From: Thalassospira sp. MCCC 1A01148
GTDB lineage: Bacteria > Pseudomonadota > Alphaproteobacteria > Rhodospirillales > Thalassospiraceae
Length of the DNA: 64,000 nucleotides
Assembly: GCF_001613795.1 (NCBI RefSeq)
Contig: NZ_LPVZ01000020.1
Span: 1,240,001-1,304,000 of the forward strand
Reading direction: 5' to 3'
The notes beneath the pieces are model-generated. The model searched no databases and was not told the origin of the DNA. It worked only from the letters and a program-made list of their open reading frames with translations. Positions 31,669 through 37,475 of this stretch are shown here, in pieces; position 1 is the first letter of the stretch; each line of letters opens with the position of its first letter. A program made the position numbers and the translations under genes.

Positions 31669-32703
31669 TTAGAAGGACAGTGCGAGACCGGTAACCGCAC
31701 CAAAGCCGTCATTGTCGGCGATGTTTGCGCTGTCGGCTTCGTCATCGAACCAGAAGATCGACGATTTCCATGCTACGCCTGCGCCAAGGGTATAGGCCAT
31801 GCCGAGGTCAACGGTGCTGATTTCACCAGAAGTGGTGGTGCTGCCGTCGGTGCGGTTGCCATACTCGGAGTATGCATAGGACAGCGAAACGGTCGCTGCG
31901 TCCATTGCATAGGAAACACCAATGTCGTAGCTGTCGGTGTCGCCAGCAGTGCGGGAGTTTTCGCCCTGTGCGTAATCGTCTTCGATGTGGCCCCAGGAAG
32001 AACCAACTACGAAGTTGCCAAAGCCAACGGTCGCGCCAAGGCCATACCAGTTGCCTTCACCCCAGTTTTCACCGGTTGCGGAAACACCAAGCGCAATACC
32101 GTCAAAGTCATGACGGAATTCAACACCTGCGGAAACGATTTCGTCGCCGTTGCCATCGGTGCCGTTATAGTTGTTCGAACCGTTACGCTGGCTGTCATCT
32201 GCATAAGATGCACCAAGGCGGAAGCCACCGAAGACCGGGGTGTAGTAGGTCAGGCGGTTCTGGTCGCCGCTCGACGGAACGGTGTCGATCAGGTACGCGT
32301 CAACCCAGTTGGTCAGGTCGCCATCGTTGACACCAACCGGACCGACGGACGGTGCAGTCACACCCATTGCGTCCGCAGCACTGTCATCTTTACCAAGACG
32401 AACCTGGCCAAAACCGCCGCTGACATAGAGATACTGTTCGTCGATCTGATCGCCCGAGGTTTCACCTTCGAGTTCGATTTTTGCACCGACTTCGATGCCG
32501 TTATCAAGCGTGGTCGCACCGGAGAAGTGAACTTCGGTATCGGACTGGAAGGCGTTTTTGGACTCGCCAACATCCTGGTCAGCGACACCAGCCCACTGTT
32601 CCATGTAACCACCGACCGAAAGTTTGATCGGCTCAGAAGCCTGTGCGGTGCCTGCAGCGGCAACAGCGACGAGCGCGCTGGAAGCAAAAAGAATCTTTTT
32701 CAT
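31669..32703 (-). CDS. Outer-membrane porin, tandem copy 1
   Basis: The start at 32703 has TTGAGGG five bases upstream and yields 344 residues. A signal peptide, MKKILFASSALVAVAAAGTAQA, precedes SEPIKLSVGGYMEQW. The mature protein is a series of amphipathic beta strands ending in a C-terminal Phe (TGLALSF), as required for BAM-dependent insertion. It belongs to the alphaproteobacterial general porin family, a trimeric 16-stranded barrel. It has exactly the same length as the upstream paralogue, and loops differ more than strands. A 659-bp leader separates the two copies. Confidence 0.93.
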   Translation of the reverse strand: MKKILFASSALVAVAAAGTAQASEPIKLSVGGYMEQWAGVADQDVGESKNAFQSDTEVHFSGATTLDNGIEVGAKIELEGETSGDQIDEQYLYVSGGFGQVRLGKDDSAADAMGVTAPSVGPVGVNDGDLTNWVDAYLIDTVPSSGDQNRLTYYTPVFGGFRLGASYADDSQRNGSNNYNGTDGNGDEIVSAGVEFRHDFDGIALGVSATGENWGEGNWYGLGATVGFGNFVVGSSWGHIEDDYAQGENSRTAGDTDSYDIGVSYAMDAATVSLSYAYSEYGNRTDGSTTTSGEISTVDLGMAYTLGAGVAWKSSIFWFDDEADSANIADNDGFGAVTGLALSF

Positions 32704-33105
32704 CTTAACCCTCAATAGAATGACGTTGATGGAGTGAAGGGATGAACCGAGCGACCCTTCAATCTGTCGAGGGTGATAAAACACTCAAGGTGACCGTTGG
32801 TCAATTACTATAAATGACTAAATGTCACTTAAATGATGCACCGTTGCTCATTTGCAACACAACATCTCTATAAGCCTTCTATTTACTGTGTTCAGTCTCT
32901 ATCTACATATGCCGACTAGCCATTAACAACTTTCCCCTCAACTGTTCTTTGTCTGACCTGTCACCTATTGTGACTTCCAGTCACTTATCACAAGCGACGT
33001 TAACCCACACAGAAATCAAGCTTGGCAACTCATGAAACAGTTAGATTTAGCACCCTTTGGTCTTTCGCTACGCGAGCGATCTCACGCAGAGGAGCTAAAA
33101 CCGGC

Positions 33106-33362: not shown

Positions 33363-34397
33363 TTAGAAGGACAGTGCGAGACCGGTAACGGCACCATAAC
33401 CGTCGTTGTCGTCGCTAGCAGCCGTCGTGCCACGCTCGTTGTCGAACATGAAGACCGAGGACTTCCAGGTCACGCCAGCGCCGAGGGTGTAGCTCAGGCC
33501 GAGGTGCAGGTTGGAAAGGCTGTCTTCAGCAGTTGCCGAACCGTTTTCGTCTTCACCATAGAAGTAGGTGAGGGTTACGGTTGCGGCGTCCATTGCGTAG
33601 CCAACACCGAAGTCATAACCGAAAGCATCGCCGTTGGTTGCGTTAGCGCCACCATCGAGGTATTCGCTGTTTGCGGCACCATATGAACCACCAACGGTGA
33701 ATGCGCCGAAGCCAACGTTTGCACCAACATGGTAGTTACGGCCATCGTCGGCATCGCCTTCAGCCATACCGGAAACTTTAACCGAAACGGCATCGAAATC
33801 ACCGATGTATTCTACGCCAACAGCATAACGTGCGTCACCAGCGGTAGCGGTGTCGTTGTGCTCCGAGGTGTCGTCATCGGTGTAAGAAAGACCTGCACGG
33901 AAACCACCGAGAACCGGGGTGTAGTAGGTTACTTTCTTGGCATCGCTGTAGCCATAGATGTTGGCGGTGATGTTTGCGTCAGAAAGGCTTACCCAGTTGC
34001 CAAGGTCACCATCCTGAGCGTTGACCGGACCGGTCGACGGAGCAACGGTGAGCATATCGGTCTGCGGGCCATCTTCGGCGCCGAGTTTGATCTGACCGAA
34101 ACCACCGTTGACGTACAGGTACTGTTCGTCAACCTGTGCACCAGCAGCTTCTTCGCCTTCGAGTTCGATTTTCGCACCGACTTCGATGCCGTTATCAAGC
34201 GTGGTCGAACCAGCAAAGTGAACTTCGGTGTCAGACTGGAAAGCGTTACGGGACTCGTATGCGTTGTCCTGCGAAGCAACACCGGCCCACTGTTCCATAT
34301 AACCACCTACGGACAGGCTGATCGGCTCAGAAGCCTGAGCTGCGCCTGCGAAACCAACAGCGACAAGTGCGCTGGAAGCTACCAGAATCTTTTTCAT
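33363..34397 (-). CDS. Outer-membrane porin, tandem copy 2
   Basis: The start at 34397 has TTGAGGG upstream in the same context as copy 1, and the protein is also 344 residues. The signal peptide MKKILVASSALVAVGFAGAAQA is near-identical to that of copy 1, and the end NDGYGAVTGLALSF differs by one residue from copy 1's NDGFGAVTGLALSF. Middle loops diverge strongly (for example SLSDANITANIYGYSD), suggesting altered pore or surface properties. Acidic loops are frequent in both. It is divergent from the DUF3576 lipoprotein gene. Confidence 0.93.
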   Translation of the reverse strand: MKKILVASSALVAVGFAGAAQASEPISLSVGGYMEQWAGVASQDNAYESRNAFQSDTEVHFAGSTTLDNGIEVGAKIELEGEEAAGAQVDEQYLYVNGGFGQIKLGAEDGPQTDMLTVAPSTGPVNAQDGDLGNWVSLSDANITANIYGYSDAKKVTYYTPVLGGFRAGLSYTDDDTSEHNDTATAGDARYAVGVEYIGDFDAVSVKVSGMAEGDADDGRNYHVGANVGFGAFTVGGSYGAANSEYLDGGANATNGDAFGYDFGVGYAMDAATVTLTYFYGEDENGSATAEDSLSNLHLGLSYTLGAGVTWKSSVFMFDNERGTTAASDDNDGYGAVTGLALSF

Positions 34398-34648
34398 CTT
34401 TTCCCTCAACGTCTTTGAATGCGTTTTACGCAATACAAATATTTGGACAGCTTTTGCCGCCCGGTTCGAAAAGGATGGAGCCACTAAATATCTGCCGCGT
34501 CAACCAAAGCTGTGACCAAAATGGCACATTGCCGCTCGACTGTGGCAAAAAAAACACACCGGTTTTCTTTGCTCATCGTGAAATTCCACCCTATATTCGC
34601 TGCAAAATATGGTTCTGCTTCTGAAGTACATTTGTCTAAAGGCCGGAA

Positions 34649-35215
34649 ATGATAACCTTTTCTTCGTTCAAATCGCAGATTTCTGCGGCGGCAATCGTTT
34701 TGGTGCTGGCCGGATGTTCCTATGGCAGCGTTGATTATGATCAGTTTCCGGGATCGGCCAATACGGACGAGCGAGTCAACGGGAGAACCATGACACGCGC
34801 CGACGAAAAAGAACGCGGCGGTCTGTTTGGCTCCGAAGGGCTCAATATTTTTGGTGGAGAAGACGCGCAGCAAGGCGGTGGTTCAGGGATTGGCGTGAAC
34901 AGCTTCCTGTGGCGTGCCTCACTTGATACGCTCTCCTTCATGCCACTTAATTCTGCAGACCCGTTTGGCGGCGTCATCATTACCGACTGGTACACACCGC
35001 CCGAGTCCCCGGACGAGCGTTTCAAGCTGACCGCCTACATCCTTGGTACCGCGCTTCGTTCAGATGCCATCAAGGTTTCCGTCTTCCGCCAGGTCAGTGT
35101 TGGTCCCAACCAGTGGCAGGACGCAGTTGTTGAGCCGGGAACGGTAACCTCCATGGAAGATGCCATTCTCACTCGTGCACGTCAGCTTCGCATTGATAGT
35201 GCAACGGCCGAATAA
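34649..35215 (+). CDS. DUF3576 domain lipoprotein
   Basis: 188 residues with a signal peptide and lipobox LVLAGC, Cys at residue 23. The core (NSFLWRASLDTLSFMPLNSADPFGGVIITDWY) is the DUF3576 signature; ERFKLTAYILGTALRSDAIKVSV follows. The function is unknown. In many alphaproteobacteria this gene directly precedes leuS, lptE and holA; here the next gene is a short leuS-like frame, starting five bases after the stop. It is probably anchored in the envelope and co-transcribed with lptE. Confidence 0.9.
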   Translation: MITFSSFKSQISAAAIVLVLAGCSYGSVDYDQFPGSANTDERVNGRTMTRADEKERGGLFGSEGLNIFGGEDAQQGGGSGIGVNSFLWRASLDTLSFMPLNSADPFGGVIITDWYTPPESPDERFKLTAYILGTALRSDAIKVSVFRQVSVGPNQWQDAVVEPGTVTSMEDAILTRARQLRIDSATAE

Positions 35216-35220
35216 GGTTA

Positions 35221-35886
35221 ATGTCGAAAGGCACACCTTACATATCGCCAGAATACAACCCCCATGCGCTGCAACGCGAATGGGGGTTTCTTGTATCAGC
35301 CGAGCGTCATGAGCTGTTTGAAGCGATGCACAAGAGTCTGGGTACATTCCGCGCTGTGCTCTGCGGATCTGTTGTTCAACACGCGGCCGAAGGTTCCGAG
35401 AGTTCTGATGCGATGCCCGGACACTCGGCCAAAGTTACGAGCGAGGGGATCGCACAAGAGGGCGAACAGCTCTATCGGGAAGTCGGCCTTGATATCATGA
35501 CACTCGCACTGCTTGCCGATGTCCCGGCAAGCCGCCCCCTACACCTGACGCAACATAGCCTGATTGGCCATTGGCGCTGGCTGCGGGATGTCTGGCGCGA
35601 AACGCAATCACGTCCGAAATATGATGCGACAGCCTTTCAAACCCGAGATGCGGTAAGTGATGCCGTGCAGAACGGCAAGAACAATCTGGCTGTGGCTGAG
35701 TTGCGCAAGATGTTTAAAGAGGTGCAACACGCGCCAGAAAATGATGGGCTCTATATTTCCTTCCTGAACAGTCTAAGTCTGTTTTGCCCTTTTATCGGAA
35801 CCGAACTATTGTGGCGTCAGGGACGGATTGATCATGATCCACTCGGCAGGTCCGGTACCAAAGACAAAGAAGGTTTGATTGAATGA
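35221..35886 (+). CDS. Leucyl-tRNA synthetase-derived small protein (no catalytic core)
   Basis: 221 residues, intact, starting five bases after the DUF3576 stop and overlapping lptE by four bases. YNPHALQREW (12-21) matches the LeuRS N-terminal tip. KVTSEGI (71-77) sits where KMSKSKxN would be. YREVGLDIMTLALLADVP (85-102) parallels the YGADTxRxFMLxxxPP segment. IGHWRWLRDVW (115-125) parallels GxEGAxRFLxRVW. Residues about 150-200 parallel the anticodon-binding helices up to LLxPFxPHxxxELW. The HIGH motif, most of the Rossmann fold and the editing domain are absent. It occupies the usual leuS position. Aminoacylation is not expected, and a full leuS must exist elsewhere. Confidence 0.8.
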   Translation: MSKGTPYISPEYNPHALQREWGFLVSAERHELFEAMHKSLGTFRAVLCGSVVQHAAEGSESSDAMPGHSAKVTSEGIAQEGEQLYREVGLDIMTLALLADVPASRPLHLTQHSLIGHWRWLRDVWRETQSRPKYDATAFQTRDAVSDAVQNGKNNLAVAELRKMFKEVQHAPENDGLYISFLNSLSLFCPFIGTELLWRQGRIDHDPLGRSGTKDKEGLIE

Positions 35887-36389
35887 CATTGCGCGCGATT
35901 GCTCCGATTCTCGCACTTGTGGCCCTGACAACCCTCAGTGCCTGCGGATTTCGCCCGCTCTATGCAACGGCGGGTGATGACTACCAGACCGCTGCAAATA
36001 TGGCGCAAGTAAAAGTCGAGTTGATCGATGATCGGGTCGGTCAATTAACCCGCAATGCCCTGCTTGAAACCCTCACCCCGCGCGGGCAAAGTTTAAACCC
36101 TCTTTATGACCTGAGCGTTACCTTGACCGAATCGACAAGTGAACAGGGCTTCACCAAGGACAACGAAGCAACCATCGCCGACTATCAGATTATCGCGACC
36201 TATGCCGTGACACGTAGATCGGATACCAAAGTACTCCGGAGCGGTACGGTCCGCGCCCGAACCAGCTACAATATCGTCGATTCGGATTTCGCCAGCATCG
36301 AGGCCGAAGATGCTGCACGCAAGGATGCCGCACGCAATCTGGCACAGCAACTGGCCAACCAAGTCGCGATTGGCCTGCGCTCACAATAA
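35883..36389 (+). CDS. lptE: LPS-assembly lipoprotein LptE
   Basis: 168 residues with signal peptide and lipobox LSAC, Cys at residue 21, then GFRPLYA, the hallmark start of mature LptE. It plugs the LptD barrel in the outer membrane and helps insert lipopolysaccharide. The start overlaps the preceding LeuRS-like gene by four bases (ATGA), indicating translational coupling; holA follows after 54 bases. The lptE-holA pairing is standard in proteobacteria, where leuS normally precedes it. Confidence 0.93.
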   Translation: MTLRAIAPILALVALTTLSACGFRPLYATAGDDYQTAANMAQVKVELIDDRVGQLTRNALLETLTPRGQSLNPLYDLSVTLTESTSEQGFTKDNEATIADYQIIATYAVTRRSDTKVLRSGTVRARTSYNIVDSDFASIEAEDAARKDAARNLAQQLANQVAIGLRSQ

Positions 36390-36443: not shown

Positions 36444-37475
36444 ATGAAGCTCAAGGCAGCACAGGTTGAAAACTTCTTGCGCGCCCCGGATGCGAAGGCC
36501 CAGCTCGTTCTGATCTATGGCGAGGACGAAGGCCTTGTGCGCGAACGCGCCATCAGGCTGGCCAAGACCGTGGTCGAGGATCTCAAGGACCCCTTCCGCG
36601 TCATCGAGCTTGGCACCGCCCAGCTGAAAGAAGATGCCGGCCGTCTGCGTGATGAAGCCGCCGCCATGAGCTTTGGTGGCGGGCGGCGTGTGATCCGACT
36701 CCGTGATATTGGTGATGCACAGGCCCCTGTCATTGCCGATTTTCTCGGTGATCCGGCCGGCGATGCCCTGATTGTCATTGAGGCCGGAAGCCTTCCAACC
36801 CGTTCCAAACTGCGCCAGGCAGTTGAAAAGGCCGGCAATGGCATGGCCCTGCCCTGCTATGCCGACGGCGCGCGCGATATTGAAAGCCTGATCCATTCGA
36901 TCATGGAAGAACACAAACTGCGCATTGACCGCGATGCCACCAGCTATCTGGTCGCCAATCTCGGCTCGGACCGCATGATTTCGCGAAGCGAACTTGAAAA
37001 GCTCGCCCTCTATGCGCTTAAGGACGGTCAGGTCACGCTGGCAGACGCCATGGCCTGCGTTGGCGACAGTTCCGCTCGACACTATGACGATGTCATTCAG
37101 GCAGTTTCACAGGGCAATGTCGTCAATCTGGATGCCGCGCTCACCCGGCTGGTCGAAGAAGGCCTCAACCCGGTCGGGGCCCTTCGCATGATGATCAGCT
37201 ATTTCCAGAAGCTGCATCTGGTCAAAGGACAGGTGTCTCAGGGAATGGACGCCAACCAGGCGATGAAATCACTGCGCCCGCCCCTGTTTTTCAAGGCCGC
37301 CGATCAGTTCCGCGCCAACCTCAATAACTGGGCGGTCAACAACCTGCAGCGTGCCTTGCAAATCCTGCTCGAGGCCGAAAAGGACTGCAAAAGCGGCTTG
37401 GCAATCCCGGAAACCATCGCGCACCGCGCCATGATCAAGGTCGCGGTCGCCCGTCAGAAACAGGTCCGGCGCTAA
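36444..37475 (+). CDS. holA: DNA polymerase III delta subunit
   Basis: 343 residues: an N-terminal AAA-like domain with LVLIYGEDEGLVRERAIRLAK, a middle segment RVIELGTAQLKEDAGRLRDEA and a helical C-terminal collar domain (LQRALQILLEAEKDCKSG). The delta subunit opens the beta sliding clamp within the clamp loader. It is the last gene of the rightward run and converges on parB. A 200-base spacer with a hairpin and a possible small gene separates it from parB. Confidence 0.93.
   Translation: MKLKAAQVENFLRAPDAKAQLVLIYGEDEGLVRERAIRLAKTVVEDLKDPFRVIELGTAQLKEDAGRLRDEAAAMSFGGGRRVIRLRDIGDAQAPVIADFLGDPAGDALIVIEAGSLPTRSKLRQAVEKAGNGMALPCYADGARDIESLIHSIMEEHKLRIDRDATSYLVANLGSDRMISRSELEKLALYALKDGQVTLADAMACVGDSSARHYDDVIQAVSQGNVVNLDAALTRLVEEGLNPVGALRMMISYFQKLHLVKGQVSQGMDANQAMKSLRPPLFFKAADQFRANLNNWAVNNLQRALQILLEAEKDCKSGLAIPETIAHRAMIKVAVARQKQVRR

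Follow-up and report, generated by a model that had tools for sequence, protein, structure and literature searches.

The gene at positions 35221..35886 on the plus strand of the window, by which we mean the whole 64,000-nucleotide stretch of Thalassospira sp. MCCC 1A01148 DNA analyzed here, encodes a derivative of leucyl-tRNA synthetase (LeuRS) without the catalytic core. As far as can be read from its slot and its sequence, which agree, this remnant is a descendant of the native leuS. We infer that, before Thalassospira radiated, a xenolog displaced the native leuS, which was then demoted. In the history that we propose, a Thalassospira ancestor would have gained a second, very different leuS at another locus, and the native leuS, in its old place between a DUF3576 gene and lptE, would have lost about 590 internal codons as well as the C-terminal domain. 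What was left, still in frame, would have encoded a small folded protein made of the N-terminal tip, the stem-contact fold and the anticodon-domain helices, and selection on its amino acids would have retained this product across the genus for some new job. Taken as a whole, this explanation (gain of a xenolog, demotion of the native leuS in place and a folded non-catalytic product under selection) is in our judgment probably correct.

Neighborhood, homology and anatomy of the remnant

As the first-pass annotation had described, an intact frame of 221 codons plus TGA, running from ATG to TGA, lies between a DUF3576 lipoprotein-like gene upstream (34649..35215, plus strand; PF12100, 1e-43) and lptE downstream (35883..36389, plus strand; PF04390, 6e-5). 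Its ATG is found 5 nt past the DUF3576 stop, and its TGA forms an ATGA overlap with the ATG of lptE (35883..35886, plus strand; offset -4). Based on script-assigned lptE starts, the offset between remnant and lptE is -4 in 21 of 29 Thalassospira genomes, 0 in two, -1 in one and +4 in five. This close spacing suggests translational coupling of the remnant to both DUF3576 and lptE. After lptE follows holA, encoding DNA polymerase III delta (36444..37475, plus strand), whose best Pfam match of 24.0 bits is slightly below the cut-off of 27. Just 5′ of the DUF3576-remnant-lptE operon, two similar porin-like genes (named by eye) stand in tandem on the minus strand at 31669-32784 and 33363-34484. An RNA-level or promoter explanation of the remnant was rejected, as the locus holds one promoter-like site compared with 1.8 in shuffled sequences and six terminator-like sites compared with 3.8 (sd 2.3), neither count being clearly over chance.

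On its own, the window protein matches the NCBIfam model leuS_bact (TIGR00396) at E 0.0089 over profile positions 616-704 of 843, with 14.2 bits against a cut-off of 548.4. The same model is matched by 28 of the 29 family members at E up to 0.1 (best 4.7e-7). Searching the PDB with a profile of the 29 remnants yielded 16 matches at E up to 1, all of them LeuRS (best 2.2e-8), and profile-profile comparison gave E 1.2e-8 against 19 native LeuRS of the order and 2.8e-6 against four LeuRS of Thalassospira. Structure modeling, proposed in the first-pass annotation, produced two AlphaFold models that resemble LeuRS, one for the window protein (pLDDT 82.9, pTM 0.82) and one for the divergent member L032 (pLDDT 87.7, pTM 0.86). 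Among the 50 Foldseek matches listed for each, 49 and 48, respectively, are LeuRS; the others among those listed are one CysRS and two MetRS, both class I enzymes. TM-scores by query length are modest (0.40-0.55), with best E-values of 4e-4 and 1e-4. On the tree, L032 (from genome G020) diverges further than any other family member; it has no ATG ahead of the conserved tip, and with an assumed GTG start it comprises 205 aa.

The window protein by itself has no Pfam match and stays under the NCBIfam cut-off, as might be expected of an unrelated small protein that merely resembles LeuRS, but profiles, profile-profile comparison, fold and position all indicate LeuRS and we give that reading almost no credence. 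No independent known protein family was found in searches of Pfam (none meaningful for the 29 members), NCBIfam, PHROGs and plasmids. The leuS origin proposed in the first-pass annotation was to be given up if LeuRS profiles gave no match or if the frame belonged to a known family of its own; it withstands both, with LeuRS matches present and no such family in Pfam, NCBIfam or PHROGs. Because a gene of this type has no Pfam match and only a sub-threshold NCBIfam match, it may easily be filed as hypothetical.

Two parts of native LeuRS (~853 aa) are kept in the remnant, the N-terminal tip and a segment (remnant residues 71-202) that begins at the KMSKS loop, takes in the stem-contact fold and ends with the anticodon-domain helices. 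The tip (residues 7-28, YISPEYNPHALQREWGF...; 35239..35304, plus strand, as are all following parts) resembles the LeuRS N terminus. Behind it, about 590 residues of the native enzyme, the Rossmann core and the editing domain, are replaced by a fast-evolving, variable linker of 42 residues (29-70; 35305..35430). As these are the only residues between the tip and the KMSKS region, there is no room for an editing (CP1) domain, and a profile search with residues 29-71 found no significant match that would derive the linker from other LeuRS parts. The decayed KMSKS loop and stem-contact fold (residues 71-126; 35431..35598) are followed by a second variable linker (127-146; 35599..35658) and the anticodon-binding-domain helices (147-202; 35659..35826). 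With a short tail (203-221; 35827..35883) the protein ends about 20 residues past these helices, and the LeuRS C-terminal domain (tRNA elbow) is absent. Stem-contact fold and anticodon-binding helices are a LeuRS feature that the remnant displays in both profile and fold. The protein has a class I anticodon-binding region without a catalytic core.

In the alignment, KVTSEG (residues 71-76) corresponds to KMSKS, EVGLD to YGADT and NNLAVAELR to FNKAVARIR. The KMSKS columns have decayed in the remnant family, with K at 59%, V at 83%, T at 48% and T at 69%; in 58 compared LeuRS, K, M, K and S stand at 100%, partly by construction, as rows were picked by the motif and the native L065 and L070, which are without it, were dropped. 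A HIGH-like motif occurs in none of the 29 remnant members, and HMGH or HVGH is found in all 20 native LeuRS. With the loss of HIGH, adenylate pocket and KMSKS, the sequence implies that the remnant is incapable of aminoacylation or leucine activation. Eight of 34 LeuRS-conserved columns (90% in the 58 LeuRS) are kept, namely G89, D91, P102, R119, W125, A159, P190 and G201, while 13 columns, W120, R122, F188 and C189 among them, show at 95% or above a residue that is not the LeuRS majority. In total, 32 columns are invariant in the remnant family, the start Met included.

The N-terminal tip is the homology claim with the least support. When its YN-x7-W pattern was compared with LeuRS in an ungapped register (full overlap, BLOSUM62), 12 of 5000 shuffles reached its score against alphaproteobacterial LeuRS and none of 5000 against other Pseudomonadota, in a test that was redesigned after the outcome of the first version was known. 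In that first version, where windows could overhang the end, 516 and 444 of 1000 shuffles did so. The tip alone gave no significant match in profile searches. LeuRS from T. thermophilus has YNPHAIEAKW close to its start. Traces of the tip, the decayed KMSKS, a YGADT-like segment, the anticodon helices and the lack of HIGH and editing domain had all been noted in the first-pass annotation and are borne out by register test and alignment; the loss of the C-terminal domain had gone unmentioned.

The native slot and the leuS elsewhere in the genome

For comparison of the slot we considered 31 relatives from the order outside the genus, 27 of which matched leuS strongly, and retrieved 20 of the 27 loci. 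In every one of the 20, lptE and holA adjoin a canonical LeuRS frame (850-967 aa), as expected from the earlier statement that leuS is usual at this position, and DUF3576 is located upstream of leuS in 18. In Thalassospira, the DUF3576 gene, the remnant and lptE are encoded on one strand in 29 of 29 genomes, with holA next in all 12 larger loci. Given the order DUF3576-leuS-lptE-holA in the relatives, the remnant therefore occupies the place of the native leuS. It shares with the bacterial LeuRS native to the order (TIGR00396) the operon slot, the tip, the segment from KMSKS loop to anticodon helices and the predicted fold. It differs in size (221 compared with ~850 aa) and in lacking a functional KMSKS, the HIGH motif, the Rossmann core and the editing and C-terminal domains.

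The remnant is present in each of the 29 Thalassospira genomes searched, without a single internal stop (0/29) or broken frame (0/29). A search of 297 genomes of the order, including that of the window, detected short frames in these 29 Thalassospira only, and the 57 other matching genomes have frames of at least 754 aa, which are LeuRS. A diverged remnant outside the genus could be missed by this search because 211 of the 268 non-genus genomes gave no match, not even to their own LeuRS. No remnant was found in five small-genome alphaproteobacteria that have the same LeuRS type as Thalassospira; one of the five matched, with its own LeuRS (frame of 935 aa).

A full leuS resides elsewhere, as the first-pass annotation had anticipated. 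It is the sole full leuS found in the genome of the window, encodes 1002 aa and is located at G000:C18:120124-123129 (L071:3025-6030), on a contig other than that of the window, which lies at C20:1240001-1304000 of the 24-contig genome. The encoded LeuRS carries LHIGH and KMGKR motifs and belongs to a rare type with extra segments; in the main aligned piece it shares 32-36% identity with 20 native LeuRS. One LeuRS at another locus is present in each of 28 genus relatives and in the window's genome, with frames of 1002-1108 aa except for G022, in which the LeuRS piece is a 712 aa frame under the cut-off. Searches at E up to 1e-60 found no native-type full LeuRS in the same genomes. In a tree of 72 rows, constructed with a quick method and with long branches flagged by the program, eight Thalassospira LeuRS group with four from small-genome alphaproteobacteria in a clade (100) that excludes the 60 other Pseudomonadota LeuRS. 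The nearest relatives found are from five small-genome alphaproteobacteria (G313, G317, G444, G448 and G545), with 45-53% identity. At E up to 1e-150, matches were obtained in 5 of 287 non-Thalassospira genomes of a class sample and in 0 of 394 of a phylum sample, and the donor was not found among them. Overall, tree and identity indicate that the full LeuRS of Thalassospira is probably a xenolog of a rare type.

Single-sequence searches with the remnant against 92 LeuRS place native LeuRS of the order at all of the best 18 ranks. Below E 0.01 the remnant matches 19 of 20 native LeuRS of the order, 3 of 10 other alphaproteobacterial and 5 of 30 other Pseudomonadota LeuRS, 3 of 27 Thalassospira xenologs and none of the five from the small-genome group. 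Used alone, the stem-contact part gives E 3e-7 with native LeuRS compared with about 3 for the xenolog; the anticodon-domain part is not discriminating, with a slightly better match to the xenolog group than to native LeuRS. Remnants and native alphaproteobacterial LeuRS lie on one side of a branch (100/99.9) in a segment tree of 99 rows, from which 19 of the 27 xenologs, the short L098 and two rows with no match to the motif (L065 and L070) had been left out. Grouping of the remnant with the xenologs is 9 log units worse and was not rejected by the AU test (p 0.111). The first-pass annotation had left two routes to the remnant, shrinkage by internal deletion or a repurposed duplicate. The former stands, with the native gene shrunk in its slot. 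The latter does not, as the full leuS is by tree and identity a xenolog rather than the remnant's sister copy, which argues for displacement and then demotion.

Selection on the remnant protein

We calculated NG86 omega for pairs with dS under 1.6, giving 124 pairs that are non-independent and partly overlapping, and report figures from the 40 pairs with the lowest dS. In 35 of these 40, omega of the remnant lies between 0.18 and 0.39, and two pairs have 0.49 and 0.50. The three closest pairs, which belong to one trio, show 0.83, 0.86 and 1.05 at dS 0.04-0.07, where lptE has 0.07-0.10. Across the 40 pairs the neighbors range from 0.02 to 0.16 (lptE) and from 0.02 to 0.29 (DUF3576), a few values being not computable. 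Pooling of 14 chosen pairs revealed a regional pattern, with omega 0.24 in the tip, 0.50 in the first linker (computed for residues 29-71), 0.14 in the stem-contact region (computed for 72-126), 0.51 in the second linker, 0.28 in the anticodon helices and 0.54 in the tail. This comparison shows, as far as substitution patterns can, that selection at the amino-acid level keeps the remnant protein in the 29 genus members examined. The retained function that had been suggested from the intact frame thus gains support from low omega in the folded parts (0.14-0.28) relative to linkers and tail (~0.5). Omega near 1 together with frequent stops had been named beforehand as a sign to the contrary; omega reaches this level in the three closest pairs only, and no stop occurs in the 29 genomes.

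A slowly decaying pseudogene of the native leuS that is open by chance would also be a truncated, fast-evolving relic, with omega near 1 in the closest trio. We consider this highly improbable, as the frame is open in 29 of 29 genomes, omega is structured by region and a neutral simulation of 10 pairs puts the chance of the frames remaining open near 2e-20, a product obtained with a simple model in which 1 in 1000 was entered for two pairs that scored 0 of 1000. Translational coupling alone could hold a frame open, so the regional omega pattern is a stronger argument for selection on the protein than the open frames. The same pattern bears on the idea of a translation relay, in which the frame would be open only for ribosomes from DUF3576 to get to the lptE start and the protein would be inert. 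Tight spacing to DUF3576 and lptE, rapid protein evolution and the omega values of the three closest pairs, which lie close to 1, all fit such a relay, but a few codons would suffice for it, and the contrast of 0.14 in the stem-contact region with 0.5 in the linkers, the 32 invariant columns and the well-folded model are unexpected if the frame alone matters. A relay is in our view improbable, and a product retained by selection is the reading that we carry forward.

Evolutionary rates contrast sharply within the one operon, with identities to the nearest sister of 65% for the remnant, 86% for lptE and 97% for holA. Four-fold-site differences, summed over 20 overlapping pairs, amount to 368 of 1907 for the remnant, 455 of 1786 for lptE and 834 of 1870 for DUF3576. 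In L028, L029 and L030, DUF3576 differs at about one third of four-fold sites and the remnant and lptE at 2-6%, suggesting a recombination boundary between DUF3576 and the remnant.

Possible functions and related synthetase-derived proteins

The part of LeuRS that is retained in the remnant runs along the inner side and corner of the tRNA in the enzyme. Our tentative first choice for the mechanism, by analogy with DALRD3, is that of a non-catalytic tRNA-binding adaptor: the retained segment might bind the inner corner of a tRNA and hold it for another enzyme. The first-pass annotation had likewise proposed tRNA binding, or else regulation of lptE, as a possible function. As described in PMC7237682, DALRD3 contains an anticodon-binding domain of class I, lacks recognizable catalytic motifs of a synthetase, is thought to descend from a synthetase gene or domain and delivers tRNA-Arg to the methyltransferase METTL2. 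It differs from the remnant, to which we liken it by description, in its ArgRS-type DALR domain, its occurrence in vertebrates and its demonstrated METTL2 partner and tRNA-Arg binding (PMC7237682). Strong tRNA binding by the remnant is disfavored because the family is near neutral in charge (pI 5.8-9.2) and the LeuRS C-terminal domain is missing.

Neutral charge is consistent with a role in protein-protein contacts, in which the helical core would be a scaffold or subunit for a cellular partner and not touch tRNA. This alternative, which we rate as somewhat unlikely, draws on the conserved operon and on the 13 newly fixed positions, several of them hydrophobic or aromatic (W120, F165, F181, F188 and C189), in a piece that was formerly packed on other LeuRS domains. 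The new hydrophobic residues may, on the other hand, just repack the core after domain loss, and the partner is still putative. Candidates would be the xenologous LeuRS, which however has anticodon and C-terminal parts of its own, another synthetase, or an LPS-assembly or replisome component encoded in the operon.

Returning to the tRNA-binding adaptor as our preferred mechanism, other synthetase-derived proteins provide points of comparison. LeuRS-I of Sulfolobaceae and LeuRS2 of Halobacteria are duplicate LeuRS that have wholly or largely lost aminoacylation and still produce leucyl-adenylate or low amounts of Leu-tRNA, so that a catalytic core must be retained in them (PMC9437257). The remnant, in contrast to LeuRS-I and LeuRS2, has no catalytic core, and the LeuRS of its cell is a probable xenolog. 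GluQ-RS (YadB), HisZ, PoxA and other synthetase paralogs have jobs other than charging, and GluQ-RS is a catalytic domain without the anticodon domain, according to the same source (PMC9437257). Relative to GluQ-RS, HisZ and PoxA, the remnant retains the opposite, non-catalytic part. HisZ and PoxA likewise rest on the catalytic domain. To our knowledge, known synthetase-derived proteins mostly retain a catalytic or editing part. Among open-licence publications, in which absence is not proof, we found none on Thalassospira and leucyl-tRNA synthetase together, and no listed title or abstract opening on LeuRS-like paralogs, truncated or inactive synthetase-like proteins or transfer of leuS dealt with the remnant family.

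In the remnant, the scaffold that faces the tRNA has outlasted the catalytic part, in the original operon and throughout the genus. Its history can be read step by step from the native slot, the xenolog elsewhere and a remnant under constraint, and it offers a clean way to test what a synthetase can do with its non-catalytic half alone. These data suggest that an essential enzyme, when replaced, can persist as a functional relic instead of being cleanly lost. Possibly, though with less than even confidence on our part, the remnant represents a new non-catalytic tRNA-binding family that arose from a displaced native LeuRS, consists of tip, stem-contact fold and anticodon helices only and is a bacterial counterpart of DALRD3. 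If this is true, xenologous replacement of an essential enzyme would have released the old gene, in its original place, for a new role.
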